Source: a virus
Direction: 5' to 3' (one strand)
Virus record (IMG/VR): IMGVR_UViG_3300023172_003539
Span: 19,621-83,620 of that record
DNA length: 64,000 nt
Under the pieces are notes generated by a model. It saw nothing but the letters and a program-made list of their open reading frames with translations, ran no database searches and had not been told where the DNA came from. Each line of letters starts with the position of its first letter. The first letter of the stretch is position 1. This document shows positions 13,903 to 53,144 of this stretch, one piece after another. A program made the translations under genes and the position numbers.

Positions 13903-13908
13903 ATAAAG

Positions 13909-36362: not shown

Positions 36363-37281
36363 AATAGTATTCTAGTCCTTGATCAAAAGTTGTTTCTGGT
36401 TGATAATTCAATAATTTTTTGGCTCTGGATATATCCAATGTTCCTCTACGAGGATAAAGTTTATGAGCACCTGTATCAACTATATCACTCTTACTGCCTG
36501 TGAGTTCTATGATCTTTTCTGCCGCCACACGTAATGATGTGGCATTGCCCGCAGTAATATTGAAACTTTGATTGGCTTCGTCTGATAATGTTGCTTTTAT
36601 GATACCTTCTGCTGTGTCATTGATATAAGTAAAATCTACTTTGTTGTCACCATCGTGTACTTCTATTGTTTCGTTATTCATTGCTTTCTGGAAAAATTTA
36701 CTTAATACCCTGTCTTCCATGTCTCCTGGACCATAGACTCCGCTCGGTCTTACTATTGCATAATTTATTTTATGTTGAGCGTGATAATGTTTGACGAATC
36801 GTTCCGCAGTTAATTTAGATTCTCCATATAAATTGTTCGGTTTGGTATCTGCGTCTTCTTTGGTTCCATCGGAGAAGTGTCCGTATATCATTGACGAACT
36901 AACAAACACAAACTTTTTCACAGGCATATATTGGCAATGAGAAAGAAGATTTACTGTTCCTCCTATAATATTTTGTACTCCCACCCACGGATTATTGTTT
37001 ACTATTTTTGCTCTAGGATATGATGCTAGGTGTATCACATAATCTGGTCTATTTTTAAAAGCAGACAATACATCATCTTGTTTTGTTACATCTCCGTTTT
37101 TACAATAAACGTTTTTCCAGTTTCTCTGTCTCCAAGAATATAATTTTTCGAGATCTTTTTCCGAAATCACTCCATATGTTTCTTTATTATCCATTACTAT
37201 AACACTATGATTCATTTCAATTAATCTTTCAACAATCCTAGATCCTATAAAACCATAACCTCCTGTGACTAAAATTCTCAT
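36337..37281 (-). CDS. NAD-dependent sugar epimerase/dehydratase
   Basis: The 314-residue extended short-chain dehydrogenase has the NAD loop GGYGFIGS (7-14), IHLASYPRA, FVSSSMIYG, and the catalytic NNLYGESK. Later, VRPSGVYGPGDMEDRVLSKF is typical of sugar-nucleotide epimerases and dehydratases. The exact reaction (C4 epimerisation, 4,6-dehydration or reduction) cannot be told. It overlaps the aminotransferase by 26 bases and the carbamoyltransferase by 4 bases, so the three form a tight sugar-nucleotide cassette. Confidence 0.92.
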   Translation of the reverse strand: MRILVTGGYGFIGSRIVERLIEMNHSVIVMDNKETYGVISEKDLEKLYSWRQRNWKNVYCKNGDVTKQDDVLSAFKNRPDYVIHLASYPRAKIVNNNPWVGVQNIIGGTVNLLSHCQYMPVKKFVFVSSSMIYGHFSDGTKEDADTKPNNLYGESKLTAERFVKHYHAQHKINYAIVRPSGVYGPGDMEDRVLSKFFQKAMNNETIEVHDGDNKVDFTYINDTAEGIIKATLSDEANQSFNITAGNATSLRVAAEKIIELTGSKSDIVDTGAHKLYPRRGTLDISRAKKLLNYQPETTFDQGLEYYYEWLQNKI

Positions 37282-38765
37282 AAAACTTTTACTCCATATT
37301 TGTTGGTAAATGCTTTACCATCATCTTTGTCATTTACTATAGGTTGTCCTTTTATATTCAAACTGGTGTTAAGCAGTATAGGGCAACCTGTTTTCTTTTT
37401 CCATTGCGTAAGCAATTCATAAAAACCTGGATTGTCTGCTTTAGACACTGTTTGAACCCTACTCGTGTTATCGTAGTGTATTATGGCAGGAAAGTCTTTA
37501 CCATGCGTACAAACCGCTGTGTGTTGCATATAAGGGGTGTTTTTAACACCTTTAGGTAGGGTAAAATACTCGTTCACATCCTCTTCTAATATGGCTGGTG
37601 CGAATGGTCTAAACTTCTGTCTTTTTTTAATACCATTTACCAAATCCTTGATTTTTGATCCTCTAGGATCAGCAAGTAATGATCTATTACCAAGTGCTCT
37701 TGGTCCAAACTCCGCCCGACCATTGGCCACTCCCACCATTTTATTTTCCAACAATTCCTTTATGAGAGCATCCACAGGATATTCACCCTCTATGTTCGTG
37801 CCCAAAAATGGATGTTTCCAATTTAGGTGTCTGTGCATCGAAGCGGCTATACAACCCAACGAACTACCCGCATCTCCGGGATTGGGCATGATCCATGATT
37901 TATCGTATATTTTCTTGTTCATTAAAATTGCATTGGCCACACAATTCAATGCCACGCCTCCACCATAACATAAATTACGACTTTCACCATATTTGCTCAC
38001 AGCACGTTGTCCGTCTGGTATGTAAGTCGTACTCCATTGCCATATATGAGTGAGTGCTTCTTGTATGACTTTTTGAATGGATGCGGCAAGATCCATGGGA
38101 TCCGCTTCCGGTAACCAATTTCCTATTCCTCTGTGTAAATTTCTTTTTAATTCCAGAGTTCGATAATCCAACAATTCATTGTAGATATTATCTCGGTACT
38201 TTGGTGTTCCGTATGCTGACATTCCCATCAATATGTATTCTTCCTCTGCGGGTTTCAATCCAACTCTTTGTGTAAAAGCAGAATATAAGATTCCCAGTGA
38301 ATGAGGATATTCCATGCTTTCCAGTTTTTCTATTTCGTTGCCTTTGGCTTTCCATATAGTCATAGTTTCCCATTCTCCTATGGCATCCACACACAACACC
38401 ATGGAATCTGTAAAGGGCGATGTGAAAAAACTTCCGGCCGCATGCGAATGATGATGATCTACATACTGGTCAATTTTGATTCCAAACTGTTTTAAATGTT
38501 CCGATGGCAGATTCTGTGTTGTAAAAACTTCCGACCATTGTCCCGCTCTAATCTGTCGTCTCTTTTTTAACCATGGTTTTTCATAATACACCACTTTGTC
38601 AAAAGGACCATAACTCATTGCCTCGTTCACTATCCCCCAGTTCAGGTGATGATCATTTTTTATCTTGCTGTATCTCTCGCTATGTGCGGCCCATAGAATA
38701 TCTCGGCCGTCAACCACAGCCATGGCGGCATCATGATTCATACAATTTATTCCTAATATTCTCAT
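37278..38765 (-). CDS. Carbamoyltransferase (NodU/CmcH/TobZ family)
   Basis: The 495-residue protein has both domains of the family. An N-terminal Kae1-like half has MRILGINCMNHDAAMAVV, HHHSHAAG (104-111) for metal, and GIGNWLPEAD. A C-terminal YrdC-like half has GVANGRAEFGPRALGNRSLLADPR and PILLNTSLNIKGQP. Family enzymes move a carbamoyl group from carbamoyl phosphate, via an adenylate, to hydroxyls of sugars or antibiotics. Carbamoyltransferase genes recur in T4-like marine phages. The overlapping sugar-nucleotide genes suggest a carbamoylated sugar. Confidence 0.94.
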   Translation of the reverse strand: MRILGINCMNHDAAMAVVDGRDILWAAHSERYSKIKNDHHLNWGIVNEAMSYGPFDKVVYYEKPWLKKRRQIRAGQWSEVFTTQNLPSEHLKQFGIKIDQYVDHHHSHAAGSFFTSPFTDSMVLCVDAIGEWETMTIWKAKGNEIEKLESMEYPHSLGILYSAFTQRVGLKPAEEEYILMGMSAYGTPKYRDNIYNELLDYRTLELKRNLHRGIGNWLPEADPMDLAASIQKVIQEALTHIWQWSTTYIPDGQRAVSKYGESRNLCYGGGVALNCVANAILMNKKIYDKSWIMPNPGDAGSSLGCIAASMHRHLNWKHPFLGTNIEGEYPVDALIKELLENKMVGVANGRAEFGPRALGNRSLLADPRGSKIKDLVNGIKKRQKFRPFAPAILEEDVNEYFTLPKGVKNTPYMQHTAVCTHGKDFPAIIHYDNTSRVQTVSKADNPGFYELLTQWKKKTGCPILLNTSLNIKGQPIVNDKDDGKAFTNKYGVKVL

Positions 38766-39931: not shown

Positions 39932-40491
39932 TTTAGTTTAAAAAACCCTTTCGCTCTTTCTAAATACTTGTTCCATTGTTCCAGTGTAATGTCATATTCA
40001 AAATTTTGTGTTGTGTCGTTGCGTTGTAATAGTTTTGCTCCGTTCTTTATATGAAACCTTTCGGCCATTTCTGTCAAAGGACTTAAAGTGACTAATCTTT
40101 CTATGTGTTGTTCTCTTTTAAATTTTTTAAAAATTTCGTTTAATATGTGTTTTCCGCCACCTTTCATTTTGGCCCAAACTGTATAAGCAACTGCTATTTT
40201 TCCCACTATGCCTGCCCGCAACACCGACGGACCGGCCGCATCACGACTCAACATATCTAGTTCTTCGACTGTTGTGGGGATTTCATTTGTGAATGCTATG
40301 CATATGATTGCCATGATATCACCATTTTTGTTTTTGAGTCCATAAATTTTTCTTCCGTAGATAGTACGAAATGTGAGAGACAATTCCGGTCTCACCGGAT
40401 CCTCTGTTATATCTATATCATTCATTTCGATCAAATTAAATTTAGAATTCTTTCGAAAAATATTGTTTATTTTTTCTTTTAATTTTTCCAT
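39928..40491 (-). CDS. GNAT-like acetyltransferase
   Basis: The 187-residue protein shows the N-acetyltransferase shape. Its strand IMAIICIAFTNEI is followed by VGKIAVAYTVWAKMKGGGKHILNEIFKKFK with a Gly-rich acyl-CoA loop (KGGGKHIL). A final strand pattern HIERLVTLSPLTEMAERFHIKNGAKLL matches late GNAT sequence. The acceptor could be an amine on a sugar or protein. It is coupled to the kinase by a 4-base overlap and to the FkbM gene by a 13-base overlap. An aminosugar acceptor would fit the DegT gene of the island, but that is inference. Confidence 0.7.
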   Translation of the reverse strand: MEKLKEKINNIFRKNSKFNLIEMNDIDITEDPVRPELSLTFRTIYGRKIYGLKNKNGDIMAIICIAFTNEIPTTVEELDMLSRDAAGPSVLRAGIVGKIAVAYTVWAKMKGGGKHILNEIFKKFKREQHIERLVTLSPLTEMAERFHIKNGAKLLQRNDTTQNFEYDITLEQWNKYLERAKGFFKLK

Positions 40492-41141
40492 TTTGTAAAA
40501 ACTACTTCTTTTTTTCTTGATCTTCCAAATTCTTTATATCCCACACTGTCTAAAAACTCTATTATTTGTTTTCCTTTTCTTCTTTGTGCTTCATTTTTAT
40601 GTTCTATTTCCACGTTCAATACACAGTCATTATTTCGTAGTGTTTCTTCGCCGCCTAATAAGATGTCGTATTCACTGCCTTGTGTATCAATCTTTATTAG
40701 ATCAACATCGGTAAATTTAAAATCATCTAATTTTTTTACTTGTAATTCAGATTTATCAACATTATCTTCAAATATTTGATCTCTAAAAAAACTATGTCCT
40801 CCTGATGTTGTAGGACTGATATAAAATTCTTTGACTTCTTCTTTACTACCTAAACCAACTTCATGTAAAGTGAAGTTTTTATAGGTTTTTAAATTTTCTT
40901 TAAGACATTTAATATTTGACGGATCCGGTTCAAAAATTATCACTTCATTGAACTTATTACAAAAATCTTTGCTCCAAAATCCAATATTGCCACCTATATC
41001 AATTGCTTTTCGAAATTGTTTTACTCTGGCCAATGCATATTCTCGTTGAAGGCGTTGATACGTTGTTTCATTGTTGATACGCATCCATTCTTCATAATGA
41101 ACATCATAGTCTGGCAAAAACCAATTGTGTACTGTTTTCAT
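40479..41141 (-). CDS. FkbM-family methyltransferase
   Basis: The 220-residue protein has the FkbM core: motif I AIDIGGNIGFWS (47-58), VIIFEPDPSNIKCLKENL, the family-specific DLIKIDTQGSEYDILLGGEETL, and NVEIEHK. FkbM enzymes O-methylate sugars, antibiotics or other hydroxyls with AdoMet. In an operon of glycosyltransferases and radical SAM enzymes, a sugar acceptor is most likely. Its start follows the stop of a 34-residue gene by one base. Confidence 0.9.
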   Translation of the reverse strand: MKTVHNWFLPDYDVHYEEWMRINNETTYQRLQREYALARVKQFRKAIDIGGNIGFWSKDFCNKFNEVIIFEPDPSNIKCLKENLKTYKNFTLHEVGLGSKEEVKEFYISPTTSGGHSFFRDQIFEDNVDKSELQVKKLDDFKFTDVDLIKIDTQGSEYDILLGGEETLRNNDCVLNVEIEHKNEAQRRKGKQIIEFLDSVGYKEFGRSRKKEVVFTKWKN

Positions 41142-41142
41142 T

Positions 41143-41247
41143 TTACTTGTAAATAAAAGGGTCTTTTTTCTTTAATTCTTTTAGTCTTTTTCTATAAGCA
41201 ATTTGTTGCTTTACTTTATCAATCAAAGACCTAATCCATTTGATCAT
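41143..41247 (-). CDS. 34-aa basic helical peptide
   Basis: This short ORF has a clear AGGAG site before its ATG and encodes 34 residues, MIKWIRSLIDKVKQQIAYRK followed by RLKELKKKDPFIYK. Its start lies 16 bases inside the end of the SGNH gene and its stop is one base from the FkbM start, so it is embedded in coupled translation. I recall similar KELKK-DPFIY ends on tiny proteins of marine phages. An amphipathic basic helix is predicted. Function is unknown. Confidence 0.6.
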   Translation of the reverse strand: MIKWIRSLIDKVKQQIAYRKRLKELKKKDPFIYK

Positions 41248-42040
41248 TTTTTTCTCCTATTATTTTTTTAAATTCGGGTAACATTAACATTATAGCATCT
41301 TTATGTGCTTGGTCAAGCGGATGAGTTGATGCTCTCGGATAGTCATTTAAAAGTGCCCATTGGTTAAATCCCATATGCCTGTCTCCAAAAGTGAACCATT
41401 TGGTAAAATCTATTTCTTTTAAAAGATTTTTTAATAATTTGTCGTTTTGGTATAATAATTCAAATTCTTCCCAGAATAATGTGTTATCGGCGAGTGTAAA
41501 CATAAATGGTATTTTCTTTTTTTCTAATATATTTTGTAACCAAACGATGCTTTTCCAACTTAGATATGTTTCATGATAACGATTTGCCGCATTCTTATAA
41601 AGTGAATCGGCAAATGCTGTGACTTTCGCATCAGAAAACTCTTTTCTTCTTTTTTTAAAATCTCGTATTACTGAATCATTACCTATCAAAGTTTTTAATA
41701 CTTCTGCTTCGTTTTCTGTACAGTCCCAGGGGGTTATAGTGGCCCAACGAGTATCTTCTAATATGTTATGTCTAGGCATCGCCCAATCATAACGTGAAGG
41801 AAAAGTCCACATGACAGTCACAGCAACCTTTCTGTTATCGTTGTCCGAAACTGCGTTGAACACCCTTCTGGCTATACCGGAGTTCCCTAACCCTCCTTTT
41901 GCCGAATTGACAAAATCCATGCCTGTTTGTTGTGACAACAATGCCGCCCATGACATTTTTGAAGGATTGATACCATCGTCGTCAGATAATTCGTTACCAA
42001 ATGTAAAACTACAACCACCTGCTACCAATACGTCACTCAT
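41231..42040 (-). CDS. SGNH/GDSL-like hydrolase, paired with a radical SAM gene
   Basis: The 269-residue protein has SGNH-type landmarks: a first strand VLVAGGCSFTFGNEL (the serine position in GCSFT), SAKGGLGNSGIARRV with Gly and Asn, and a final ASTHPLDQAH with Asp and His. Such enzymes hydrolyse or transfer acyl groups on glycans or lipids. The serine motif is C-S rather than G-D-S, so identification is by block pattern. It overlaps the radical SAM gene at 42033 by 8 bases. A second SGNH-like protein (47142-47741) lies between two other radical SAM genes. Confidence 0.75.
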   Translation of the reverse strand: MSDVLVAGGCSFTFGNELSDDDGINPSKMSWAALLSQQTGMDFVNSAKGGLGNSGIARRVFNAVSDNDNRKVAVTVMWTFPSRYDWAMPRHNILEDTRWATITPWDCTENEAEVLKTLIGNDSVIRDFKKRRKEFSDAKVTAFADSLYKNAANRYHETYLSWKSIVWLQNILEKKKIPFMFTLADNTLFWEEFELLYQNDKLLKNLLKEIDFTKWFTFGDRHMGFNQWALLNDYPRASTHPLDQAHKDAIMLMLPEFKKIIGEKNDQMD

Positions 42041-43232
42041 AAATCTTTAATAGATTATTTAAATCCTTAAAAGTTTCTCCAAAATTTTCTTTCCTGACGG
42101 AATCGATTGATTTTATTTTTTCAGTTAATGCTTTTTTCCAATCCTTAATCTTGTAGTCAGGTTCTCCGTTAATATAGTCAATAGCCGTCTGTATTTCTTG
42201 TTGGTATATTTCAGTTTTTCTAAGTTTGTCAATTATCTGTTGCTTGAGCTCTCTAGGAATCTGTTGTATATCAAACTCCACAGGATGATGCAATATGTTT
42301 ATGTACCAAAAATCTGGATTCCATTCTTTTACTTTATGTGCTAACTCGTCAATGTTCCATATGTTAAAAAAATTTAGAGTTGTGCATATCTGCGTAGAAA
42401 GATTTTTTAATCCTGAATTTAAAAATCGATTTATGTTTGAATCAACTTCTGTCCATACAGCAGGATGTCTTTGATACTCAAAACGTTTTTCAATATCGTC
42501 AATGCTGAATGCTATTTCTACCCTTTTAAAATGTGGCCAAATGTCTTTTACTGCTTCTTCCGGATACTGTGTACCATTGGTGTTGTAATGAACTTCTATT
42601 TTATCTGCCACTCCTGCTTCCACACACTTACGTAAAATTGAAAATTGCTCTTTTATCATTAATGGCTCTCCGCCCGTGATCTCAAAAAATCTTATCGAGT
42701 CTATGTGCTTCTCTAGATCTTCATAAAATTTGTTAGGCTGTCTTGGCCATAATCCATCTCGATTGAATTTTTTCCAATAGTCTTTTCTGTTTGGGTCTAT
42801 CCTGATCATGTCGTTCGTCCATTGAGAACTTGAGTGAGGCGAACATATTCTACATTTTAGATTACAAATATTCCCTAACTTTAAATCAATAAATCTAGGC
42901 GAAACTATATTTTTTTGTATATGAGTTTGACCTATTACTCCTGCCTTTAACCACATATGTTGTCTCTTTGAAGTTTTACCTACTGCTTCTTCTTTCCAAC
43001 AACTGCTACAACTACTGGGTTTTTCTCCATTTAAAAATTGTTTTCTCAAATCATCCATGGCATCGGAATTCATTACTTCCGATATCGAATGTTCCGTTGT
43101 ATTGTATTTTTTCCCGGAAGTGTCTTTTAATTCTTCCCTATACAAACAGCAAGGCTTGTACCTGCCATCGGGCCTAGTTTCTAAACTAGTCCATGGAAGA
43201 TGACACATATTACTTTTTAAATATTTTTCCAC
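42033..43232 (-). CDS. Radical SAM enzyme with N-terminal Cys domain, copy 1
   Basis: The 399-residue protein has the standard CxxxCxxC cluster, CNLKCRIC at 123-130, and TGGEP (186-190). Before the core it carries an extra Cys module: Cys10 in CHLPW, Cys28-Cys29 after PDGRYK, and Cys75-x-x-Cys78. This could ligate an auxiliary Fe-S cluster like the SPASM/twitch domains that anchor peptide- or sugar-modifying enzymes. Here the module is N-terminal, not C-terminal. It is one of five tandem paralogues and the one next to an SGNH-like gene. Substrate is unknown. Confidence 0.85.
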   Translation of the reverse strand: MEKYLKSNMCHLPWTSLETRPDGRYKPCCLYREELKDTSGKKYNTTEHSISEVMNSDAMDDLRKQFLNGEKPSSCSSCWKEEAVGKTSKRQHMWLKAGVIGQTHIQKNIVSPRFIDLKLGNICNLKCRICSPHSSSQWTNDMIRIDPNRKDYWKKFNRDGLWPRQPNKFYEDLEKHIDSIRFFEITGGEPLMIKEQFSILRKCVEAGVADKIEVHYNTNGTQYPEEAVKDIWPHFKRVEIAFSIDDIEKRFEYQRHPAVWTEVDSNINRFLNSGLKNLSTQICTTLNFFNIWNIDELAHKVKEWNPDFWYINILHHPVEFDIQQIPRELKQQIIDKLRKTEIYQQEIQTAIDYINGEPDYKIKDWKKALTEKIKSIDSVRKENFGETFKDLNNLLKIYE

Positions 43233-44530
43233 CAGTCTAATATCCTTTTATCTTTTTCAAGTATTTTTGTTATGTCTTGATTCCTTAATTTATCGATTGA
43301 TTCTTGTCTGCTCTTACCACTCTTTTTTCCCCTGAAAGCATCAAATCCCAAAAACATATCATCGATATTTTCTCTCATCTTTAAATTTTTGAGAGTGTCT
43401 ATCAATGCCTGTTGTTTTCTGTTTGCCTTTGGTTCCATGTATTCTAATGCTTCATCTATAATTTCGCACATGAGTTCTCTAGGCAATGCCAACGGACTCA
43501 ACACAGCCGATGCACTAAAAGTGAACATCACTTTGGTCAATATTTCTACATCTAATTCCTGGCTCAGATCAAACATATTTTTTAATTCTAATAATCCTGG
43601 CATTGTGATTGTGAAATCTAATCTCATTTCCCTTGATGTTTTTGCTACCGCCAATCCTTTTTTAAAATTACCTAACCATTCTTTGTAATTCAATCCATCA
43701 CGTATGTATTCTCCCACATCTCCTGTTCCGTCGATCGAAGCACATATTTGCCAATCCTGAAACTGTGGCAACAACTTAAAAAGATCAATATTCTTAAATG
43801 TTGTTCTACTTAAATTGGTATTATATCTAACATAAACATCCTTTGAAAATCCCAAATCAATTATCCTTTGCATACTGTTCCAGTGTATTTCCCACATCAA
43901 CGGTTCTCCGCCACACCAATATATTTCTTTTATTTTTTTTGTTTCTATCGCATCAGTAAACTCTTGTACTATTTGTGTGTCTTGAAAATTTTTAATTTGT
44001 TCACGCAACGGAGAAGCCATCCATGGTTGAGAATCTTCGTTCCATGTTTTGTTTTTCCTCGACTCGGCTTCCCAACTGGAACTCAACATATCTCCGCACA
44101 TTCTACATTTGAAATTACATAGATTATTAAATCTATAATCAAAACTTATCGTAGGCATTGTGGTTGCTCCGTTTTCGTCTGTGCTTTCAAATGCTTCGTC
44201 TATTTTATTAGCAAAGAGTTTGTTCCAATAAGATCTATAGACATTTGTATTCAACAGTTTATGATCACATACCTGGCATTCGGATAATTCTTCTCCGGCT
44301 AGCATTCTTCGTCTCACAGAACGCATATGTTCTGAATTCCAATGTTCTTCTAACGTTAGAGGTTTATACTCATTGGCATCATTTCCTGTATCTATGTACT
44401 GCTTAAAACTTTGTGCTGGTTCTCTTGAAGCACAACACATACGCCTTTCTGTTTGTGGAGAAAGGTATGTGTGCGTCCAAGGCGCCATACAAAATGTTTT
44501 ATTGCCTTCGTTAGGCTTAATTTTTTTCAT
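43217..44530 (-). CDS. Radical SAM enzyme with N-terminal Cys domain, copy 2
   Basis: With the start set at the ATG at 44530, overlapping the end of the upstream radical SAM gene by 14 bases, the protein has 437 residues. An in-frame ATG at 44581 would extend it into the upstream gene. Radical SAM cluster: CNFKCRMC, Cys138, 142 and 145. Extra N-terminal Cys: 14 in CMAPW, 32-33, 85 and 88. The segment YNTNLSRTTFKNIDLFKLLPQF is nearly repeated in copy 3, so the two are recent or structurally close paralogues. The GGEPLMW substrate-side motif is intact. Function is unknown. Confidence 0.85.
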   Translation of the reverse strand: MKKIKPNEGNKTFCMAPWTHTYLSPQTERRMCCASREPAQSFKQYIDTGNDANEYKPLTLEEHWNSEHMRSVRRRMLAGEELSECQVCDHKLLNTNVYRSYWNKLFANKIDEAFESTDENGATTMPTISFDYRFNNLCNFKCRMCGDMLSSSWEAESRKNKTWNEDSQPWMASPLREQIKNFQDTQIVQEFTDAIETKKIKEIYWCGGEPLMWEIHWNSMQRIIDLGFSKDVYVRYNTNLSRTTFKNIDLFKLLPQFQDWQICASIDGTGDVGEYIRDGLNYKEWLGNFKKGLAVAKTSREMRLDFTITMPGLLELKNMFDLSQELDVEILTKVMFTFSASAVLSPLALPRELMCEIIDEALEYMEPKANRKQQALIDTLKNLKMRENIDDMFLGFDAFRGKKSGKSRQESIDKLRNQDITKILEKDKRILDWWKNI

Positions 44531-45809
44531 ATTTGTCAAATAACTCTTTCCATTCTGGAAATATTTCAAGAGTATTTTCATTTCTTATCTTATCATATCT
44601 CCGTGTATTAACAAAAAATAGATCTAGATGTTTTTGGTTATCTGTTGAGAACATCCAATCCAATGCAGATTCAAAACCTTTTGTTGCCCTAGTAAGGGAA
44701 TCCTGGTCCTTCAACCATTTGATGTGTTCATTGTATTTCTCTTTCACTTGTTCTTTATATTCCGGCGGCAATATGTCCATCCGTTGCCATATAGGATGTT
44801 GTAATAAATTAAAATTAAAATCTTGTGGTTTAATCAGACCTTGTTCTACCCAACTTTTATGGAAATCAGTGACATGAAGACTGTTTATAAGTCCCACCGT
44901 TGAACTGATATAAAAGTCCACTTGCGGACATATTTCCATCATACGCTTTCTATTGGCTATTGTTTGTTCCCACACTGTGCCTTTACGCATTAATTCTGCT
45001 CTAGGACCCTCGGCATCGAGACTGGCTCCAACTGACACTGAATCAAATTTATTCCATAATTCAAAAACATCTATGTCCTTAAATGTCGTTCTACTAAAGT
45101 TGGTATTGTATATAAGCCTAACATGATACATTTTACGTTTGTCTAGTTCTTTTAAAATACGATAATGTTCTTCCATTATTATTGGCTCTCCACCAGCAAA
45201 ATAAAACTGTTCTGTGTGCTCAAACTGTTCTAGCATCTGTTCCCATAGATCATTTGTGCTTCTACCAACTTTCATTACCTTGGCGTGTGGAGGAGGACTA
45301 CCTGTAAGTTTTTTGTGATCTTCATACCAGTTACTACTGAACCATGTTCCGCAACTCCTACAAGCCATGTTACATAAATTTGAAAAACGTATATCCCAAT
45401 ATTTCATAACAAAATCTGCTTTGCCGTCTGGAAGCGTGTTGTGTACTAACGGAATGTTATGACCAAAATGTTTGTTAGAACTTAGACGTAGGCTAAAAAA
45501 TCCAGATTTCTCTTGATCGTAACATTTCATACATTCTCGAGATTTCTGATTGTTCAGCATACGTATTCTCATGTCTTTCATTTTGTCACCGTTGAAAACT
45601 TCTTCCATGCTGTTTTCATTTAGATTTCCCACCGGATAAGGATCAAACGCAAAACAACAAGGATACGCTCTGCCATCAGGATATGCATGAAGATGCATCC
45701 AAGGTAGTATACAGAAAGTGTCACTTTCGATCAGTAACTCTTTCTCCCTATCGGTCATGTCTTTTATTTTTAATTTTTCAGGCTCTTTGGCCCCGTACTC
45801 ATATGCCAT
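44517..45809 (-). CDS. Radical SAM enzyme with N-terminal Cys domain, copy 3
   Basis: The 430-residue protein has its radical SAM cysteines at 146, 150 and 153 (CNMACRSC). The N-terminal module is at Cys33 (CILPW), Cys51-52 after YPDGRAYP, and Cys93/96. The motif YPDGRAYPCC is very close to PDGRYKPCC of copy 1. Substrate-side GGEPIIMEEH and YNTNFSRTTFKDIDVFELW link it to copy 2. The start is the first ATG and overlaps the upstream gene by 11 bases. No signal peptide is present, so the enzyme acts in the cytoplasm. Confidence 0.85.
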   Translation of the reverse strand: MAYEYGAKEPEKLKIKDMTDREKELLIESDTFCILPWMHLHAYPDGRAYPCCFAFDPYPVGNLNENSMEEVFNGDKMKDMRIRMLNNQKSRECMKCYDQEKSGFFSLRLSSNKHFGHNIPLVHNTLPDGKADFVMKYWDIRFSNLCNMACRSCGTWFSSNWYEDHKKLTGSPPPHAKVMKVGRSTNDLWEQMLEQFEHTEQFYFAGGEPIIMEEHYRILKELDKRKMYHVRLIYNTNFSRTTFKDIDVFELWNKFDSVSVGASLDAEGPRAELMRKGTVWEQTIANRKRMMEICPQVDFYISSTVGLINSLHVTDFHKSWVEQGLIKPQDFNFNLLQHPIWQRMDILPPEYKEQVKEKYNEHIKWLKDQDSLTRATKGFESALDWMFSTDNQKHLDLFFVNTRRYDKIRNENTLEIFPEWKELFDKYEKN

Positions 45810-47142
45810 TGTACCATTCTCCTATAATTGGGAAAGTTTTTTTGAAATCCTTGCCCCTACGTTTGTCATATTGACTATAAAATGCCTTAAAATCTTTTTG
45901 TAATTTATCCTGTGTGGCCGCACCTGCGTGTGGTGTTTTGACCACATCAAGGTAATCTATTAATCGTGTTGTGTGATTTATTTCCATTTGTTCCAACCAT
46001 TTTTCGTTGTTCGTTAAAAATTTTTCAATGTCACCTTTAAATCTGTTTCTTAATTCGTCGGGCAATACTAACGGTGATTGGAAACTAGGAAATCTTAATA
46101 TGTTGAGTGTGTAATTAATCTTTGGTCCATAGACCTTGCTAGAATGTTTGAACCAAACAATCTTTTCAAGAAATTCCGGTAACGACTCTAAACATAATGC
46201 ATTGATTGTACACATATTGTGGATCTCTACCGGCACTTTATCTACCATCATGTGTAACACTCTGCTGAACCAATCTCCATAATCCAATCCATCTCTGATA
46301 TATTCTGCTTGTTTAAAAGTTGCTTCATTACTGGTGTATAAATGAAAGTTTTTAAATCCTTTTAGTTTAGTTTTAAAATCATCGATTATGCTTTGTTTTG
46401 CTCCTAGATTAGAATTGATAGCAATACGCATATCTGGATTCATTTTATCACCTTGGGTTTCTATCCAATCTAGCAATCTCCATAGGTGAGGAGACATCAT
46501 TGGTTCTCCACCTGTTATTCTTAGTTCATCTAAAGTTTTATGTAGGTCCGAATCCCACCATTTAAAAAATGCTTCCACATACGGATTGGTCTCATTCAAT
46601 TTATACGGTTGTGATTCTTCATGAGAATGTGTGAAATGATTACGTCCGTCTGATTTTAAATCTGTATAGGGTCCTTTTTGTTTGATGTCGTTTGCCCATG
46701 TCGACGAAAATGCAGGATTACAGTAAGAACAAGCAAAATTACAAGTTCTATCAAATGCAATTTCTAAAGTTTTGAGATTGATATCTTCGGTTATAGGAGT
46801 CTGGCTTGCTGTTATCATGTCTGCATTAGAATATATTTTGCTTTTATATACTCTATCGCTTACAGCATCTCTTTTCATGTCCTCTATCTTCCAACAATAT
46901 TCACAACCTGCGGGTCTTTCTCCCGCGATCATTTTGGCACGATCGTTTTTCTTTTCCGGAGTATTGTGTAACAATTTTGGATTCTGCGTTACTTTAGCAA
47001 GATCAACTTTGTGTGCTGGCGGATGGTGGCAACTTGTGGTCATGCCAGATCCCAGCCATATGGTAGCATTGTACCATTTTGCTCCACAAAACGATGGAGA
47101 TATCGAATCTAAAAACTGTTTTTTGTAATCTATATCTTTCAT
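45799..47142 (-). CDS. Radical SAM enzyme with N-terminal Cys domain, copy 4
   Basis: The 447-residue protein has radical SAM cysteines 134, 138 and 141 (CNFACSYC). The N-terminal module differs from copies 1-3: Cys19 in CGAKW, a single Cys38 followed by HHPPAHK, and Cys80/83 in GCEYCW. Segments RAKMIAGERPAGCEYCWKIED and ELRITGGEPMMS are close to copy 5, so copies 4 and 5 form a second subfamily. The start codon overlaps the stop of the upstream SGNH-like gene (TAATG). Function is unknown. Confidence 0.85.
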   Translation of the reverse strand: MKDIDYKKQFLDSISPSFCGAKWYNATIWLGSGMTTSCHHPPAHKVDLAKVTQNPKLLHNTPEKKNDRAKMIAGERPAGCEYCWKIEDMKRDAVSDRVYKSKIYSNADMITASQTPITEDINLKTLEIAFDRTCNFACSYCNPAFSSTWANDIKQKGPYTDLKSDGRNHFTHSHEESQPYKLNETNPYVEAFFKWWDSDLHKTLDELRITGGEPMMSPHLWRLLDWIETQGDKMNPDMRIAINSNLGAKQSIIDDFKTKLKGFKNFHLYTSNEATFKQAEYIRDGLDYGDWFSRVLHMMVDKVPVEIHNMCTINALCLESLPEFLEKIVWFKHSSKVYGPKINYTLNILRFPSFQSPLVLPDELRNRFKGDIEKFLTNNEKWLEQMEINHTTRLIDYLDVVKTPHAGAATQDKLQKDFKAFYSQYDKRRGKDFKKTFPIIGEWYNGI

Positions 47143-47741
47143 TATATGTACTTAAACACTTTCTCTGCCCACTGTTTATTTTGTTCAATCGTCATATGAT
47201 TTATTTTTCCTTTGCCCCAATGATCTCGGCCACCACTGAAACTGAACATACTTTCATCGATGAATATTCCTGTTGTTAATTTTATATTGGCATTTTTGTC
47301 TGCCGTTTCAAATGGTTTAAAACTCCACATCTGTATTATTTTTTTGTTTTGTAATTTAGATAAAACGTGTTGATCATAATATTTCAAAGCATACTCGTAT
47401 GCTAATTCGTCTTTGTCATAATTGTGTAAATGTTTCCAATAATTTTCCAGTGTTTTATAAATGTCTGGGTCTACTCCTTCCAGTGGTTCTGTGTTGGCAC
47501 TCAATATCAAATTCGGATGGTATAGTCTATATGGTTCTGTCCAACAAAATATCGAATAATCCGGAACACGATCTTGTTCTATCAATTTGTTAAACCTAAA
47601 AAATACACTCCATATGCTTCTTCCAGGTTCGCCAAACCATCGTATACGATCACAACCTAATTTCTCTTGAAGTATATTACACCAACTCTCGGATTGATTG
47701 CTGGCACAGAAACTATCTCCAAAAAAACCTATTGTGCTCAT
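47142..47741 (-). CDS. SGNH-like hydrolase between two radical SAM genes
   Basis: The 199-residue protein has the SGNH opening STIGFFGDSFC, the GDSF nucleophile block, GEPGRSIWSVFFRFN with the second Gly block, and a terminal GKGKINHMT with the Asn-His that stands for the catalytic His. Its length is typical. It would hydrolyse or transfer an acyl or carbohydrate ester. ATGA and TAATG overlaps join it to copies 5 and 4 of the radical SAM family, so its product is expected in comparable amounts and may act on the same substrate. Confidence 0.72.
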   Translation of the reverse strand: MSTIGFFGDSFCASNQSESWCNILQEKLGCDRIRWFGEPGRSIWSVFFRFNKLIEQDRVPDYSIFCWTEPYRLYHPNLILSANTEPLEGVDPDIYKTLENYWKHLHNYDKDELAYEYALKYYDQHVLSKLQNKKIIQMWSFKPFETADKNANIKLTTGIFIDESMFSFSGGRDHWGKGKINHMTIEQNKQWAEKVFKYI

Positions 47742-49108
47742 GAGTTTCTACACTCCTCCCAAAACTCTCGCATTTCAGGAAATATTTTTTCAAAATTTGT
47801 TCTTCGTCTACGATCGTGTTCTGTAAAAAATGTGTAAAAATTCTTTTTTTGTTTTTTATCATCGGTATAATTTTTTTGCCAATAAGAAAGATTACGTTGC
47901 ATTTTTTGTATTTCAAAATCTTTAAACAACGAAAAATCTTTTTGATTCTCTCCCGAATTCGATTTCATCCATTCGATATTGTCTTTGTGTATCTCTTGAT
48001 ACGATTCGGGTAATAGTGTTACTTGTTGCCATTCTGGTTGACGTAGTATGGGTATATCGAACCATACTCGTTGATACGTGGTTGAATGTTTTTCTCGAAG
48101 ATGCTTGATATCTTCAAGTAACTTTCTTAGACCCGTGACACTAAGATTGTTATAGGTTATTATGAAGGTAACTGAATTACGTACAGGAATCATTGTCAAA
48201 AAATGATCTACGTTGTCTAACATTTTGTTGTAATCAAGACCATTACGAATATATTCTGCTTGTTTACCCCAGGTATCTACAGAGACGAACTGCATGAAAT
48301 GTTCTACTTTTTCTTCATGGCAAATACGACTAACTGCATTAAAATATCTTGTTTTTAACTTGGGATCAGGTGGACACATATTCGAAGTTACATTTAGGTG
48401 TAGATCTTTTTTTGGATTATCTATGATGTAATCAAATACCTTGTAAGTGTTCACATCCATCATGGGCTCTCCTCCAGTCATTCTAAAATGTTTCAATCCC
48501 TTATACAATTCAGGCCACCATTTCCAGAATGCTTCCACATACGGATTAGATTCTCTATTTGGTATGGGTTGTCTTCTTCCTGAGAAATGTGTCGGGTCAT
48601 TGTGTACAGGTGATGTAGGATATCCACCGTACATATTGATTTCTTTACCCCACGTTGTTGAAAATTGAGGAGAACAATAGGAACAAGCAAAATTACAGGC
48701 ATTGTTAAAATTGACTTCTACATAACGAGGAGTATGTGTTGTATTAAAAGGATCTTGCTTAATTTTATCAAAATCCTCCATGGCCCATGGCTCACCAGAA
48801 CGATAGTGTCGGTCACTCATTTCGCCAGTGTCTTCCATTTTCCAACAGTAAGAGCAACCTGCAGGTCGTTCACCTGCGATCATTTGTTTTCGTTGTCGAA
48901 TTTTTTCTTCGGTGTTGTGCAATGCCGCTGGATTTGATGCCAGCGAATCTTTATCAATCTCATGCAGTGGAGGATGATAACATGAATTGGTTAATCCAGT
49001 GGGTAGATGTAAAGACACCTGATTCCATTTTGCTAGACACATCGTAGGCGAAATTGAAAGTAATTTTTCCTTGGCTTTCTCGGCATCTGATTTGTAAACA
49101 CTACTCAC
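47738..49108 (-). CDS. Radical SAM enzyme with N-terminal Cys domain, copy 5
   Basis: I place the start at a GTG at 49108, 9 bases after AAAGGAG. Upstream in-frame ATGs at 49132 and 49174 lie inside the preceding glycosyltransferase gene. The 456-residue product has radical SAM cysteines 138, 142 and 145 (CNFACSYC). Module cysteines are 24 in CLAKW, 43 before YHPPLHE, and 85/88 in GCSYCW. The HFRMTGGEPMMD motif and the NPYVEAFWKWW segment are nearly as in copy 4. The C-terminus is basic. Function is unknown. Confidence 0.85.
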   Translation of the reverse strand: MSSVYKSDAEKAKEKLLSISPTMCLAKWNQVSLHLPTGLTNSCYHPPLHEIDKDSLASNPAALHNTEEKIRQRKQMIAGERPAGCSYCWKMEDTGEMSDRHYRSGEPWAMEDFDKIKQDPFNTTHTPRYVEVNFNNACNFACSYCSPQFSTTWGKEINMYGGYPTSPVHNDPTHFSGRRQPIPNRESNPYVEAFWKWWPELYKGLKHFRMTGGEPMMDVNTYKVFDYIIDNPKKDLHLNVTSNMCPPDPKLKTRYFNAVSRICHEEKVEHFMQFVSVDTWGKQAEYIRNGLDYNKMLDNVDHFLTMIPVRNSVTFIITYNNLSVTGLRKLLEDIKHLREKHSTTYQRVWFDIPILRQPEWQQVTLLPESYQEIHKDNIEWMKSNSGENQKDFSLFKDFEIQKMQRNLSYWQKNYTDDKKQKKNFYTFFTEHDRRRRTNFEKIFPEMREFWEECRNS

Positions 49109-49988
49109 GATCCTGCACTCCTTTATTAACATAAGGTTTTTGACAAAATTTAAAAAAACGACTGCCTTCGGCATTAAAAGTGCTGATTGGAATATCTAAT
49201 TTTTGTTTCAGACTATTTCCGTACATTTCTATATCTTCATCCAAATCATTGATTGCATGAAAAAAACTTTTACAACTGTCTAAGTTTCTAACATTTTCTA
49301 AATTAAAATTACTTTTTATGGTTGCTTGATAACAACCAACTCTTGCACCTAACATGGCGTATTTTCCATATTCAACATCTGCCCCGATGCTTTGCCATAT
49401 GGACAATATTCGTAAATTGTGTTGATGTATCTTATTTGAAAAATCCAAAGGTGAAATTCTATTACCTTGATCTAAACTCATCTTTACACCTTCTCGAAAT
49501 CCGGCAACAAATGCCTGCTCCGGTGAAAAGTTGATTACTGTATTACTATAAACATTATGTAAATTTTCATGAGGTACTGTCCAACAAAAATCTATTTTGG
49601 CTTTTTCGTCCTCTGCATTTTCGTGGGTTTTCATTTTCAAACAGGTTTCTTTATCCCATCCAACGACTCCTCCGTTGCCATATATCAATCCGTTTATTGA
49701 ATTTTTTGCTTTCCATCTGTGTACTGCTTTTTTATTAGTTTTCGTCCAATCTAATTTTTGTAATAAAAATGAAGGATCAATAACATTGTCTCCGTCTATG
49801 GATATAAAAAAATCTGTTTCTGCGATCTCTGCCGCGGCTTTGTGTGCATTATCAAAACCTTTGACTCCATCCACACGTTTTGCCCAAGGCACGATGTTTA
49901 ATAGATTAGCATAATTTTCTTCCTTGTTGGGTTCATAAAAAGATATTAACACAAAATCTAAATCACTTATTCTAACGGTGTCTGCCAT
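49101..49988 (-). CDS. GT-A-like glycosyltransferase with DGD motif
   Basis: The start is the ATG at 49988, preceded by a purine-rich GGAAGGGGG. An in-frame ATG 33 bases upstream lies in the neighbouring gene. The 295-residue product has a GT-A style donor site: FFISIDGDNVIDPSF with Asp65/Asp67, then NGLIYGNGGVVGWDKETCLKM. It would transfer a nucleotide-activated sugar. The protein ends in a helical region with several cysteines. It leads directly into the first radical SAM gene by an 8-base overlap. Confidence 0.75.
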   Translation of the reverse strand: MADTVRISDLDFVLISFYEPNKEENYANLLNIVPWAKRVDGVKGFDNAHKAAAEIAETDFFISIDGDNVIDPSFLLQKLDWTKTNKKAVHRWKAKNSINGLIYGNGGVVGWDKETCLKMKTHENAEDEKAKIDFCWTVPHENLHNVYSNTVINFSPEQAFVAGFREGVKMSLDQGNRISPLDFSNKIHQHNLRILSIWQSIGADVEYGKYAMLGARVGCYQATIKSNFNLENVRNLDSCKSFFHAINDLDEDIEMYGNSLKQKLDIPISTFNAEGSRFFKFCQKPYVNKGVQDRE

Positions 49989-50272
49989 GTGTATCCCCCT
50001 TCCTTGAATCCTACGGGCCAATATGGATCTCCATCTAAGAACACATATCCTTCTTTTGATTTTTTAAGTTCATTAAATATTCTGCCGGTCTTTTTGATAG
50101 GTTTTTTTACAATCTTGCCATCACTGTCCAACATCCATTGTTCTATTCCTGATTTTTGTATTTCTAACATTGTTTCGTGAGACACTTCCATAATTTTTCC
50201 ATCTATGGTCACCAGATCTGGTTTTCTTTTCCTAGGCTTGAAATTACCTAATGCGTTAAAAAATTCGGTCAT
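49967..50272 (-). CDS. Unknown phage protein, 101 aa
   Basis: This small basic protein contains KPDLVTIDGKIMEVSHETMLEIQKSGIEQWMLDSDGKIV and YVFLDGDPYWPVGF. I do not know its family, although similar short genes occur beside glycosyltransferases in marine T4-like phages. It overlaps the upstream glycosyltransferase-like gene by 17 bases and the downstream one by 22 bases. No membrane or signal sequence is seen. Confidence 0.65.
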   Translation of the reverse strand: MTEFFNALGNFKPRKRKPDLVTIDGKIMEVSHETMLEIQKSGIEQWMLDSDGKIVKKPIKKTGRIFNELKKSKEGYVFLDGDPYWPVGFKEGGYTWQTPLE

Positions 50273-51062
50273 TCAATAACTCCGTTGTGTCTTTTTGATA
50301 ATAATGCCATACCCTGTTTAATCTCTTACCTCCCAGATACATCCTATCAGCGAGTCGTGTTGGATAAAGATAATTGTGTTGATCCATGACACTTTCTGTG
50401 TTGTTTATTCCAGGTTTATTATGTATAAATTTAAACCATGGATAGTCTACTAATAATTGATTCGTGGGATCTAAAATTCTCAATGAAAGAGCATAAACTA
50501 CATCTGTTGTCGGTACGTCGTCATGACAATTAATCAACATTTCATCTCTTACTGTGCTCCAATTTAGTGTAATTGTTTTGCAAATATCAAAAAATTTTTT
50601 AGATAAAACACTTTTTCTAAAATAAAACATTCCGTTATAAACATCTGCCAATAAATTTTTATTAAATATTTTTCTATAAGGACTATTATTAATAATTTCA
50701 TCTTTATAATTTCTACAATTGATCGAGAACACCATGTCGTGCTGTCCTAAATGATTCCACCATTCGTCAGTGCAGGATGTGAACAACATATCGGCTTCTA
50801 ATTTAATTGTATGTGTAAACGGTGTCAAACTAAATGCTTTGTATTCGTTTGAAAATTTGTTTGAATGCTTCTCGCTGTTGTCATCTTTTAAAACAACAAC
50901 ATAATCTATATAATCGCTATTAATTTTTGTCAGTTTATCCGTGACAACACATATTAGGTTTTCATTATTGTGTTGTTTAATAGATTTTGCCAACTCGATA
51001 CTTAATTTAGCATAATCTGTTTTTTCGTTGTTCTGTGCAAACCATAGAAAACCTTTAGACAT
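50256..51062 (-). CDS. GT-8-like glycosyltransferase
   Basis: The 268-residue protein begins like a GT-A domain (SKGFLWFAQNNEKTDYAKLSIELAKS). Its metal site HTIKLEADMLF has Glu89-Ala-Asp91 in place of DxD. It continues with MVFSINCRNYKDEI and VYNGMFYFRKSV, a typical acceptor-side pattern in glycogenin-like enzymes, and GMFYF is shared with that group. A transferase for a surface or virion glycan is likely. It overlaps the neighbouring 249-residue paralogue by 8 bases. Confidence 0.7.
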   Translation of the reverse strand: MSKGFLWFAQNNEKTDYAKLSIELAKSIKQHNNENLICVVTDKLTKINSDYIDYVVVLKDDNSEKHSNKFSNEYKAFSLTPFTHTIKLEADMLFTSCTDEWWNHLGQHDMVFSINCRNYKDEIINNSPYRKIFNKNLLADVYNGMFYFRKSVLSKKFFDICKTITLNWSTVRDEMLINCHDDVPTTDVVYALSLRILDPTNQLLVDYPWFKFIHNKPGINNTESVMDQHNYLYPTRLADRMYLGGKRLNRVWHYYQKDTTELLNDRIF

Positions 51063-51804
51063 CGATTGGTATCTCCTTGTTTAGAATGTGTACATCTTGT
51101 TTTTCCGTCATACCAACACAATCAGCATATCGGAACTTAATTGAAGAATCATTAATTTCTAATATGTCAACATCTGTGGGTAACATACTCATTTTAACCG
51201 GTATGTAATTTTTGATGTTCAGTTGATGCATAGCAATCGCAAAAGCATAATCATTGCGGAAGTTCTTAAAATCTATCCTGTATAGATTACAAAAATAATT
51301 GTAATTGTGTTGTATGTGTTGTATCAATCGAAATATGTTTTCGGTTGTTTTATTTTTTTTAAAAATAGTCACTGTTGCCCAAACAATAGGTAACATACTT
51401 AACGAACTGTATTCGAATTTATTTCTACCGGTTAGGTCATGTACTTTGTTGTGTAATAAAAAATCATAACCAGTATCAACAAATTGTAACAAATTATCTG
51501 TGTAAACAAAATAGTCGGCATCTAATAGTATTGTTGTGTCATAGGGAGTGTACTCATAGGATTTTGCTCTTTCTAAATTGAACCAATCCACAGTTTTATT
51601 TTTATAAACTCTTTTATTTCCTGACTTATTTTCTATGACCACTGTGCTGTCAACATCCTTTAAAAATTTTTTTGTCGATTCATTAGTGACCACTGTCACG
51701 GGAAGATTTAAATGTTTTTTGATCTGCTGAATGCAGAAATTAGTAACTGTATGATATTTGATTTTTTCCGAATCAAAACAGTAGATTAATACACCTGCTG
51801 ACAT
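51055..51804 (-). CDS. GT-8-like glycosyltransferase, second copy
   Basis: The 249-residue protein has GVLIYCFDSEKIKYHTVTNF at the start and TILLDADYFV with a perfect DAD metal motif (95-97). A VHDLTGRNKFEYSSLSMLPIVWATV acceptor-side segment follows. It is built like the following gene but diverged. It would add a sugar from a nucleotide donor. It is the second gene of the operon, two bases after the end of the 104-residue gene, and is followed by an 8-base overlap. Confidence 0.7.
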   Translation of the reverse strand: MSAGVLIYCFDSEKIKYHTVTNFCIQQIKKHLNLPVTVVTNESTKKFLKDVDSTVVIENKSGNKRVYKNKTVDWFNLERAKSYEYTPYDTTILLDADYFVYTDNLLQFVDTGYDFLLHNKVHDLTGRNKFEYSSLSMLPIVWATVTIFKKNKTTENIFRLIQHIQHNYNYFCNLYRIDFKNFRNDYAFAIAMHQLNIKNYIPVKMSMLPTDVDILEINDSSIKFRYADCVGMTEKQDVHILNKEIPIDV

Positions 51805-51805
51805 A

Positions 51806-52120
51806 TCAAACCCTTTTTTTTAATTGATTATATAATTGATGATATTCGTTTAGTGCTTCTTGATTTCGTTTTAACAGTATTTCTAAAAATTCTTCTGGGT
51901 TGGTTATTTCGCAGGGATTTTCGTTGCTGTCTAGAATGAAAAATGTTTTGTGTGTTTTTTTTAATGTGTCAACTAGGTTGATGGTATCAGCATCCGCAGA
52001 AAATATAGAACCGTTATAAGCAACAACTTGTCTGGACCTTGCTCTTTCCAGAGCATTCCTTTTGGCCGTTGCTACTTCGAAACTTAGATCCGATTGTTTT
52101 TTTAAGTCAGATAAATCCAT
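51806..52120 (-). CDS. Unknown helical protein, first gene of the minus-strand island
   Basis: The 104-residue product is helical at both ends. The middle carries VVAYNGSIFSADADTINLVDTL and FFILDSNENPCEITNPEEFLEILLKRNQEAL, which resembles a small domain known from phage tail-fibre assembly proteins (DUF4376-like). That is only a resemblance. It is the first gene behind the single recognisable promoter of the 18-kb operon, with -10 box and start codon only 6 bases apart. Confidence 0.55.
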   Translation of the reverse strand: MDLSDLKKQSDLSFEVATAKRNALERARSRQVVAYNGSIFSADADTINLVDTLKKTHKTFFILDSNENPCEITNPEEFLEILLKRNQEALNEYHQLYNQLKKRV

Positions 52121-52172: not shown

Positions 52173-53144
52173 CTAGGCAGTACTGTTTGATGTTACCGCA
52201 GTCGAAGACGGAACATACGCTGTTGTTAAACCGTTTGTTGTGTTAGGGTCTAAAGTCAACAATGTGTGTCTTGTCTGACCAATGAAGTTGGCATATTGAT
52301 CAACACCTGAAGTGTTACCAGATGTAAATGTGCCATCTCCGCCGTCTGGATCATTGAACTCTACTCTCACTGTGATCGCTGTTGCTGTTCCCACTGCACC
52401 ATTCAATTTTGCTTGTATGTCTAGGTACATTGAAGTGTAACTGCCACCATCTTGTGTGAGTCTAAGTATTGTTTGATAAGACGTTGTTAGGTCATGATAA
52501 CCAAGAGCAAGTCCGTTTGTACTTACTGTTTCAGTTGAACCTGATCTTGTAGATTCTTTTGAACCAATCGCAAGTCTTCCCAACCCAGTTACTAATTCGC
52601 TGAGTGAGTTGTCTTTTGATGTTGCTGAAGAACCACCATTACCTATTCTTGATGTGTCTATTTGAATTTTTCCGCCAGCGTTAAAGAACCATCTCATTTC
52701 ATTACCACTTGAAAAGTTTGTAGTAAGTTCTGATACATGGCTACCTGTCCATCTTGTGCTGGAGTCTGCATTTTGTAATGCCGCTGATTGTGTTAGTCCT
52801 CCTGATGCTGATGGGCATCCTGCCGCAACCGCTGTGGCTAGATTTGCCAAGTCAGTTTGTAATGCTGAAATGATCGCAACATTATCACCTGCCGCTTTTG
52901 CTGTTGTTGATGTTAATGAAACTTCTGCATGGTTGGCAAGGTTATCCATGGCACCGAATAGTGAGTTCCATTGGGCCGCTGTTACCGTGTTACCTGCTGT
53001 TACTGTTGAAATTGTCGTTTGTCCTAAACCATAATCACCTGATCCTGTTCCGATCATGTGGTTGATTCCGTAAGGTGATGAGCTACTCGCCGCGAACGAG
53101 TTATATTCATCATCTAAAATTGTGTCACCTGCTGTATACGCCAT
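52173..53144 (-). CDS. Tail-fibre-like virion protein, 323 aa
   Basis: The protein begins MAYTAGDTILDDEYNSFA, a start shared by many marine phage fibre proteins. It continues with Ser/Thr/Gly-rich beta-strand sequence lacking any catalytic motif. Repeated short hydrophilic strands and the GVDQYANFIGQTRHTLLTLDP end are in keeping with a trimeric fibre or tip. It is the last gene of the late fibre operon and follows the upstream fibre gene by one base. Host-receptor contact is likely by analogy. Confidence 0.7.
   Translation of the reverse strand: MAYTAGDTILDDEYNSFAASSSSPYGINHMIGTGSGDYGLGQTTISTVTAGNTVTAAQWNSLFGAMDNLANHAEVSLTSTTAKAAGDNVAIISALQTDLANLATAVAAGCPSASGGLTQSAALQNADSSTRWTGSHVSELTTNFSSGNEMRWFFNAGGKIQIDTSRIGNGGSSATSKDNSLSELVTGLGRLAIGSKESTRSGSTETVSTNGLALGYHDLTTSYQTILRLTQDGGSYTSMYLDIQAKLNGAVGTATAITVRVEFNDPDGGDGTFTSGNTSGVDQYANFIGQTRHTLLTLDPNTTNGLTTAYVPSSTAVTSNSTA

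Follow-up and report, generated by a model that had tools for sequence, protein, structure and literature searches.

Radical S-adenosylmethionine (SAM) enzymes require Fe-S clusters and strong reductants. Their genes have already been published in numbers from the neighbourhood of phage tail-fibre genes (PMC7029224, PMC12390700), and twelve are on record from a T4-like virus (PMC5332604); here and below, statements taken from cited articles draw on parts of their texts. The authors who described eight radical SAM genes in Aeromonas giant phage 332-Vera term this highly unusual (PMC12390700), radical SAM and glycosyltransferase genes are among the main auxiliary metabolic genes of Tasman Sea phages (PMC7150976), and glycosylation of mycobacteriophage virions has been reported, as cited in PMC12619734. 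Here we describe a locus on a 64 kb stretch (the window, meaning the whole of the DNA analysed) of the 83,620-base IMG/VR virus record IMGVR_UViG_3300023172_003539, in which five radical SAM genes (copies 1 to 5) occupy 42033-49174 of the minus strand within an operon that recurs among viral contigs. The reading tentatively preferred, with a probability of roughly 0.4, is that the five enzymes, each with a twitch module at its N-terminus, build a modified glycan, likely on the virion protein W or the tail-fibre-like protein F, whose genes open the operon.

Viral relatives were collected as at most the best 80 matches in each of five viral-contig scans, and a genome scan contributed 75 loci, 49 of them with Bdellovibrio-type names. 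Loci with many exact 60-mers in common were merged, which left 289 (216 viral, including the window, 72 cellular and one from a Vibrio phage). Because resemblance to one query sufficed for a locus to be fetched, joint occurrence of several groups was not imposed by the sampling. In a FastTree phylogeny of 1170 full-length proteins, each copy of the window falls into a separate orthologue group, namely c1 (188 loci, support 0.86), c2 (170, 1.0), c3 (203, 0.81), c4 (183, 1.0) and c5 (182, 0.985), with 205 proteins outside all five. An IQ-TREE analysis of a sample of 94 supports c2 to c5 at 100, 100, 100 and 98; c1 has no exact bipartition there, and an inner c1 clade of 164 in the FastTree phylogeny has support 0.968. 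Recent tandem duplication was rejected as an origin of the five genes on account of these separate groups. An earlier note on this DNA, made from the sequence alone, had divided the copies into two subfamilies (1-3 and 4-5). The pairing of copies 4 and 5 holds in both trees (Shimodaira-Hasegawa (SH) support 0.997 in FastTree, ultrafast bootstrap 95 in IQ-TREE), whereas copies 1-3 form a clade in neither; groups 2 and 3 form a pair in FastTree (SH 0.875) but not in IQ-TREE.

The complete set of five groups is present in 136 of the 216 non-redundant viral loci. With repeats collapsed, their order, taken from greedy gene calls made in this analysis, is 5-4-3-1-2 in 96 of these cassette loci and 5-4-3-2-1, the order of the window, in 39; the two orders thus account for 135, and the remaining locus holds such an order inside a longer string. 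Two of the 136 have one copy on the opposite strand. Of the 80 viral loci without the full set, 50 may be truncated, a radical SAM gene lying no more than 1.5 kb from the end of the locus. The earlier proposal that the five belong together is therefore upheld, although they are not strictly neighbours as had been stated: they cluster on one strand of the window, yet an SGNH-like gene parts copies 4 and 5. The family of this SGNH-like gene is present in 14 of the 136 cassette loci, and its position is often taken by other genes.

The radical SAM block sits within a longer conserved order, F, W, s, T, T, p/q, G, the five radical SAM genes, U or H, and K, where T and G are glycosyltransferase-like, H is SGNH-like, K is a carbamoyltransferase, and s, p and q are small proteins. 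Counting loci with enough flank only, F lies within 12 genes upstream of copy 5 in 23/23, W within nine genes in 53/55, and family T upstream in 83/84, with two T copies in 80/84. The small protein s is found upstream in 50/55, p or q in 51/55, and G within three genes upstream in 102 of 133 cassette loci. On the downstream side, U or H follows within six genes in 61/62 and K within six genes in 57/62.

NodU/TobZ-type carbamoyltransferases act mostly on sugars. Exactly one NodU-type carbamoyltransferase is encoded in each of 26 viral records (25 large ones of 156-357 kb and the window's record, several being fragments), whereas one of 14 control genomes has any; the protein of the window scores 142.3 bits against the NodU equivalog NF041651, below that model's cut-off of 1000. 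Each of the 25 large viral records holds 7-21 matches to the radical SAM family at E <= 0.001; the 14 controls all attain this level too. Over the curated cut-off of the family NF033640 the two sets separate, with at least 5-12 matches per record in 25/25 (hand-counted among the best 150 matches listed) and none in the 14 controls. An A-type Fe-S carrier (PF01521) was found in 15 of the 26 viral records and not in the window's fragment, which accords with PMC5332604 on T4-like marine viruses, and Fer2 ferredoxin had no match in any of the 26, several of which are fragments. The reductant may be supplied by the host.

Each of the five proteins matches NF033640 (N_Twi_rSAM) over nearly its full length, at 299.1-397.9 bits against the cut-off of 170. 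The listing of this family gives its name, a twitch domain-containing radical SAM protein, and a statement of function was not found in it. The motifs reported before are confirmed in all five frames: CxxxCxxC reads CNLKCRIC, CNFKCRMC, CNMACRSC, CNFACSYC and CNFACSYC in copies 1-5, and GGEP is present throughout. The cysteines of the core triad are kept in 99.9-100% of the 1170 full-length relatives. Pfam Radical_SAM exceeds its cut-off for copy 1 alone in a Pfam scan and for three of the five in a search of the record, and the five PF04055 matches in the whole record at E <= 0.001 are copies 1-5.

Ahead of this core lies a second set of cysteines, C10/C28/C75/C78 in copy 1, C31/C49/C102/C105 in copy 2, C33/C51/C93/C96 in copy 3, C19/C38/C80/C83 in copy 4 and C46/C65/C107/C110 in copy 5. 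The pattern described earlier is thus present in all copies, with a distance from the second cysteine to CxxC of 41 to 52 rather than about 45-50 residues. In the 1170 relatives the four columns are cysteine in 99.1, 99.5, 100 and 100%; these percentages are partly circular, since the patterns of the first viral scan and of the genome scan contained such cysteines, while in the other four viral scans most patterns were free of them. The SPASM motif is described as CX9-15GX4C-gap-CX2CX5CX3C-gap-C and twitch as a shortened SPASM that binds one cluster (PMC6231123). Its first half, CX9-15GX4C-gap-CX2C, precedes the core in strict form in 928/1170 relatives and in relaxed form in 1147/1170, the copy 2 group being without the motif glycine (strict form in 5/170). 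The second half, CX5CX3C-gap-C directly after CX2C, occurs in 0/1170, and on this ground a full SPASM domain with two auxiliary clusters was rejected; a CxxC within the last 120 residues, as a C-terminal module might have, is found in 2/1170. In copies 1-3 the N-terminus also matches Pfam SPASM.

A profile of the N-terminal region alone finds as its best matches in the PDB the auxiliary domain of BtrN (E 0.018 and 0.028), with the four cysteines in register, and the full profile matches BtrN at E 1.1e-4. BtrN is 2-deoxy-scyllo-inosamine dehydrogenase. The similarity is weak, and the matched stretch of BtrN (165-236 of 269) follows its core, unlike the arrangement in the phage copies. In a model of copy 5 built with 136 sequences (predicted local distance difference test (pLDDT) 94.4, residues 1-19 below 50), C46 precedes a beta-hairpin, C65 follows it and C107/C110 come after helices, which is the order of elements described for twitch, a cysteine ahead of the hairpin, one behind it and CxxC after helices (PMC6231123). 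The structural check thus covers copy 5; an AF2 model from the five window proteins alone reached pLDDT 60.6 and was not interpreted. Copies 1-5 accordingly carry a predicted half-SPASM (twitch) auxiliary module in front of the core. The earlier view of an Fe-S-type module ahead of the core is borne out in this predicted sense, its novelty is not, as the architecture is catalogued in NF033640. The twitch of SkfB is C-terminal and folds back next to the first barrel strand (PMC6231123), and since the canonical module packs beside that strand, placement at the N-terminus may require no new geometry.

In structural alignment with SkfB, the modelled core of copy 5 reaches Z 14.3 over 231 residues with a root mean square deviation of 3.9; its fold neighbours include the sugar enzymes BlsE (Z 14.0) and DesII (Z 13.6) and the peptide enzymes SkfB (14.3) and SuiB (13.7). 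The VIA-align comparison spanned model residues 123-435, scarcely reaching the N-terminal domain, and supports no fold claim for that domain.

Table 1. Genes of the radical SAM cassette and its surroundings in the window
Feature	Position	Strand	Details
DegT-type sugar aminotransferase	35292..36362	-	domain match; family in 20/136 cassette loci
NAD-dependent sugar epimerase/dehydratase	36337..37281	-	domain match; family in 19/136 cassette loci
NodU/TobZ-type O-carbamoyltransferase, family K	37278..38765	-	Carbam_trans_N E 1e-43, Carbam_trans_C E 7.7e-53
FkbM-type methyltransferase	40479..41141	-	domain match; family in 6/136 cassette loci
SGNH/GDSL-like hydrolase or acyltransferase, family H	41231..42040	-	family in 85/136 cassette loci
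Radical SAM copy 1, group c1	42033..43232	-	399 amino acids (aa); NF033640 E 1.5e-107; Pfam Radical_SAM 119-299, SPASM 10-79
Radical SAM copy 2, group c2	43217..44581	-	454 aa; NF033640 E 3.5e-94; SPASM 31-106
Radical SAM copy 3, group c3	44517..45809	-	430 aa; NF033640 E 5.2e-119; SPASM 33-97
Radical SAM copy 4, group c4	45799..47142	-	447 aa; NF033640 E 5.1e-89; Pfam: none at E 0.01
SGNH-like gene between copies 5 and 4	47142..47741	-	FGDSF near start (by eye)
Radical SAM copy 5, group c5	47738..49174	-	478 aa; NF033640 E 2.3e-97
Glycosyltransferase-like gene, family G	49101..50021	-	conserved DGDN motif
Small protein p	49967..50272	-	101 aa; p or counterpart q usual at this place
GT-A-like gene, family T	50256..51062	-	family profile: weak glycogenin match
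GT-A-like gene, second family T copy	51055..51804	-	family profile: weak glycogenin match
Small protein s	51806..52120	-	104 aa; conserved position, 50/55
Virion protein W, candidate acceptor	52173..53144	-	relative of PA5oct gp360
Tail-fibre-like protein F	53146..54756	-	PHROG tail fiber protein E 3.4e-6

The genes of the window from 41231 to 52120 all abut or overlap (Table 1). The true start of copy 5 may be internal, for example a GTG at 49108; the first 19 residues of its model score below 50. The FkbM-type methyltransferase is placed outside the conserved core on account of its low count. The SGNH-like gene between copies 4 and 5 matched nothing in a Pfam scan at E 0.01, and the profile of family H (A7) matches the GDSL structure 4rsh at E 3.4e-4 over its first ~50 positions. 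Family U (L380:13109-14167 and relatives; L numbers denote our loci) encodes ~360 residues and follows the cassette in 46 of 62 flanked loci; it has no Pfam or PDB match of note and was not found in the window, where the SGNH-like H follows. PDB profile searches with families V and U gave nothing useful. A Bdellovibrionales protein that begins like G has a Glycos_transf_2 match at residues 314-386, which was not counted for family G, as it lies beyond the G-like part (by eye). The window also encodes a T4-type DNA polymerase, whose closest relatives among the matches listed are those of Sinorhizobium jumbo phages (50.6% identity) and Agrobacterium ones. A QueE-like protein at 24355-25248 (plus strand; TIGR03963 E 4e-12, below that model's cut-off) was detected by models other than PF04055 and has CNLQCNGF in place of CxxxCxxC, the third cysteine being absent from its usual position. 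Amid the tail-fibre genes, 56146-56823 (minus strand) is an aspartyl/asparaginyl beta-hydroxylase-like gene (PF05118), a counterpart of which lies in a Bdellovibrionota radical SAM island (L467:9315-10058).

Relatives of the family are also found outside the large viral records. Twelve genomes behind cellular loci hold 4-33 family matches each, and all 12 have some over the cut-off. Of the 72 cellular loci, nine have a carbamoyltransferase inside the retrieved stretch, and 13 genomes that were checked have 0-3 copies each, nine of the 13 having been chosen with one already seen nearby. Judged by eye, L394, which has members of all five groups and adjoins L21-, Obg- and RsfS-like genes, and L469, which adjoins PheS/PheT-like genes, appear chromosomal. 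In L469, from a Bdellovibrionales metagenome-assembled genome (MAG), counterparts (by eye) of W, s, both T genes, q and G at 11389-15800 are followed by radical SAM genes, and the locus may be a remnant phage or a domesticated cassette. Several other contigs labelled as MAGs (e.g. L392, L393, L440) resemble pieces of phage. In L466 and L467, ~30 kb of Bdellovibrionia chromosome contains twelve genes scoring >200 bits to the family profile, with unknown genes interspersed. The alphaproteobacterial members L422 and L436 adjoin cobalamin-type radical SAM-like genes, and L422 is also near a 1943-residue synthase-like protein (by eye). In Vibrio phage K566 (L002:14977-25439), three annotated radical SAM genes lie close to one whose annotation reads lipid A acylation protein PagP; the phage record has six family matches at E <= 0.001, two of them over the cut-off. 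Distant relatives are also present in QD01, a culturable phage of Vibrio natriegens Vmax.

In the glycan pathway proposed here, each radical enzyme would hold a SAM-cleaving 4Fe-4S cluster in its core and one auxiliary cluster in its N-terminal half-SPASM module, which would be BtrN-like but ahead of the barrel. Transfer of the sugars would fall to enzyme G and the two GT-A-like enzymes, and their remodelling to the five radical enzymes; the SGNH-like acyl enzyme and the O-carbamoyltransferase would finish the glycan, with W or F as the likely acceptor. Domain architecture, orthology, gene order and the retention of partner genes are observed here, and the clusters, the sugar substrate, the order of steps and the acceptor are the parts that we infer. 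Carbamoyltransferase, glycosyltransferase-like and SGNH-like neighbours favour the glycan among the two substrates suggested earlier, glycan or peptide. A glycan is also the simplest product for the glycosyltransferase-like partners taken with the window's DegT aminotransferase and epimerase, and the constant association with W and F suggests the virion as its carrier. Action in succession on one repeating substrate, as the earlier note had it, remains conjectural, and the divergence into five orthologue groups would fit five different reactions or steps better than one repeated reaction. Several points weigh against the glycan pathway. Its substrate and chemistry are inferred throughout, and the glycosyltransferase assignments draw on motifs and weak matches (glycogenin at E 0.018 for the profile of family T; for family G nothing below E 0.4 in the PDB and no match in Pfam searches). 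As modelled, the core fold fails to discriminate between sugar and peptide substrates, its nearest folds including maturases of ribosomally synthesized and post-translationally modified peptides (RiPPs), and the PDB chain that comes closest in a whole-profile sequence search, 8vpo (E 8.7e-10), carries no more specific name than 'Radical SAM core domain-containing protein'. A relative of W in Pseudomonas phage PA5oct (gp360, annotated ESI-MS/MS, two genes after a long tail fibre protein) shows W to be independent of the cassette, as that phage has no NF033640 match over the cut-off, and F or W was not found in the fetched stretch of bacterial loci that carry the family (e.g. L394, L408). An exact TATAAATA late-promoter site is absent from the vicinity of the operon; the window has two exact matches, both at 3780-3809 and fewer than chance. 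Finally, the glycosyltransferase genes of the comparable pelagimyophage region were read as modifiers of the host O-chain (PMC7029224).

If that interpretation is carried over, the cassette would alter the host surface polysaccharide (O-chain or capsule) during infection, blocking superinfection or recognition by other phages, and the tail-fibre genes would adjoin it since both belong to a host-recognition region. Bacterial loci with the family and a carbamoyltransferase, mostly without W and F, speak for this, as does the position of the K566 copies near the PagP-annotated gene; that the genes from F to G nearly always precede the block in the order given above, and that the genes of the window overlap in the manner of a single operon that includes virion genes, makes it unlikely, though still a serious alternative. 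Direct modification of a peptide or protein, by cross-links or side-chain changes on W, F, p/q or s, would suit the presence of SkfB and SuiB among the top folds, the substrates of many SPASM/twitch enzymes, which are peptides (PMC6231123), and the beta-hydroxylase-like gene amid the tail-fibre genes. It is distinctly improbable, however, as the genes from 41231 to 52120 are packed too tightly for a separate precursor gene to lie between them, p, q and s align over their whole length (by eye) rather than as a leader and a variable core, no RiPP recognition domain was found among the window's Pfam matches at E 0.01, and the ever-present carbamoyltransferase would go unexplained. Similarity of the core to viperin and MoaA might instead point to a diffusible small molecule or to modified nucleotides (viperin-like or queuosine-like chemistry), with the QueE-like gene and the cobalamin-type and synthase-like neighbours of L422 and L436 in its favour; such similarity is superfamily-wide, the QueE-like gene is ~16 kb away on the opposite strand, and the glycosyltransferase-like and virion partners are left without a role, so that this is very hard to credit. 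The glycan pathway is therefore retained as the preferred reading. Its wider form, in which a radical SAM pathway of five steps, common to large aquatic phages, leads to a carbamoylated, chemically unusual glycan on their own tail-fibre-associated virion protein, with relatives in Bdellovibrionota chromosomes, is conceivable but rather doubtful.

A near-fixed order of five enzymes, together with a carbamoyltransferase and glycosyltransferase-like genes, gives the uncharacterised family NF033640 a concrete and testable pathway context. Should the product sit on the virion, phages would shape their encounter with the host through radical chemistry; should it sit on the host, this would be a new route of surface remodelling. 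In open-licence PMC text without supplements, no description was found of the five orthologue groups, their order or their link to a carbamoyltransferase, no mention of NF033640 or N_Twi_rSAM, and no paper on radical SAM enzymes with an N-terminal twitch or N-terminal SPASM. The same text gave no joint treatment of radical SAM, carbamoyltransferase, phage and tail fiber, nor of carbamoyltransferase, cyanophage, lipopolysaccharide and glycosyltransferase.

Compared with the known systems, what is new is the conserved neighbourhood, a five-enzyme operon, the module itself being a catalogued architecture. All five enzymes share family NF033640, whose listing is silent on a five-member cassette. 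KVP40 encodes a MoaA/NifB/PqqE family protein (Q6WHP4) that is a Foldseek match with a template modelling (TM) score of 0.76 by target length; three relatives (E 5e-34 to 3e-39) are all under the NF033640 cut-off and are spread across 9 kb with other genes between, forming no five-gene block. The T4-like TARA_ERS488813_N000010 has 12 radical SAM genes and an A-type Fe-S carrier, and domain order, gene order and glycan partners are not given in section 14 of its description (PMC5332604). In 332-Vera, five tail fibre genes and eight radical SAM genes share a structural cluster, a likeness by published description, from whose text the word 'glycosyltransferase' is absent (PMC12390700). In the host recognition cluster of pelagimyophages, radical SAM gene cassettes share a region with tail fibres and glycosyltransferases (PMC7029224); this cluster is described as hypervariable and non-syntenic, and 'carbamoyl' is absent from the text of the article, whereas the cassette described here keeps a nearly fixed order.

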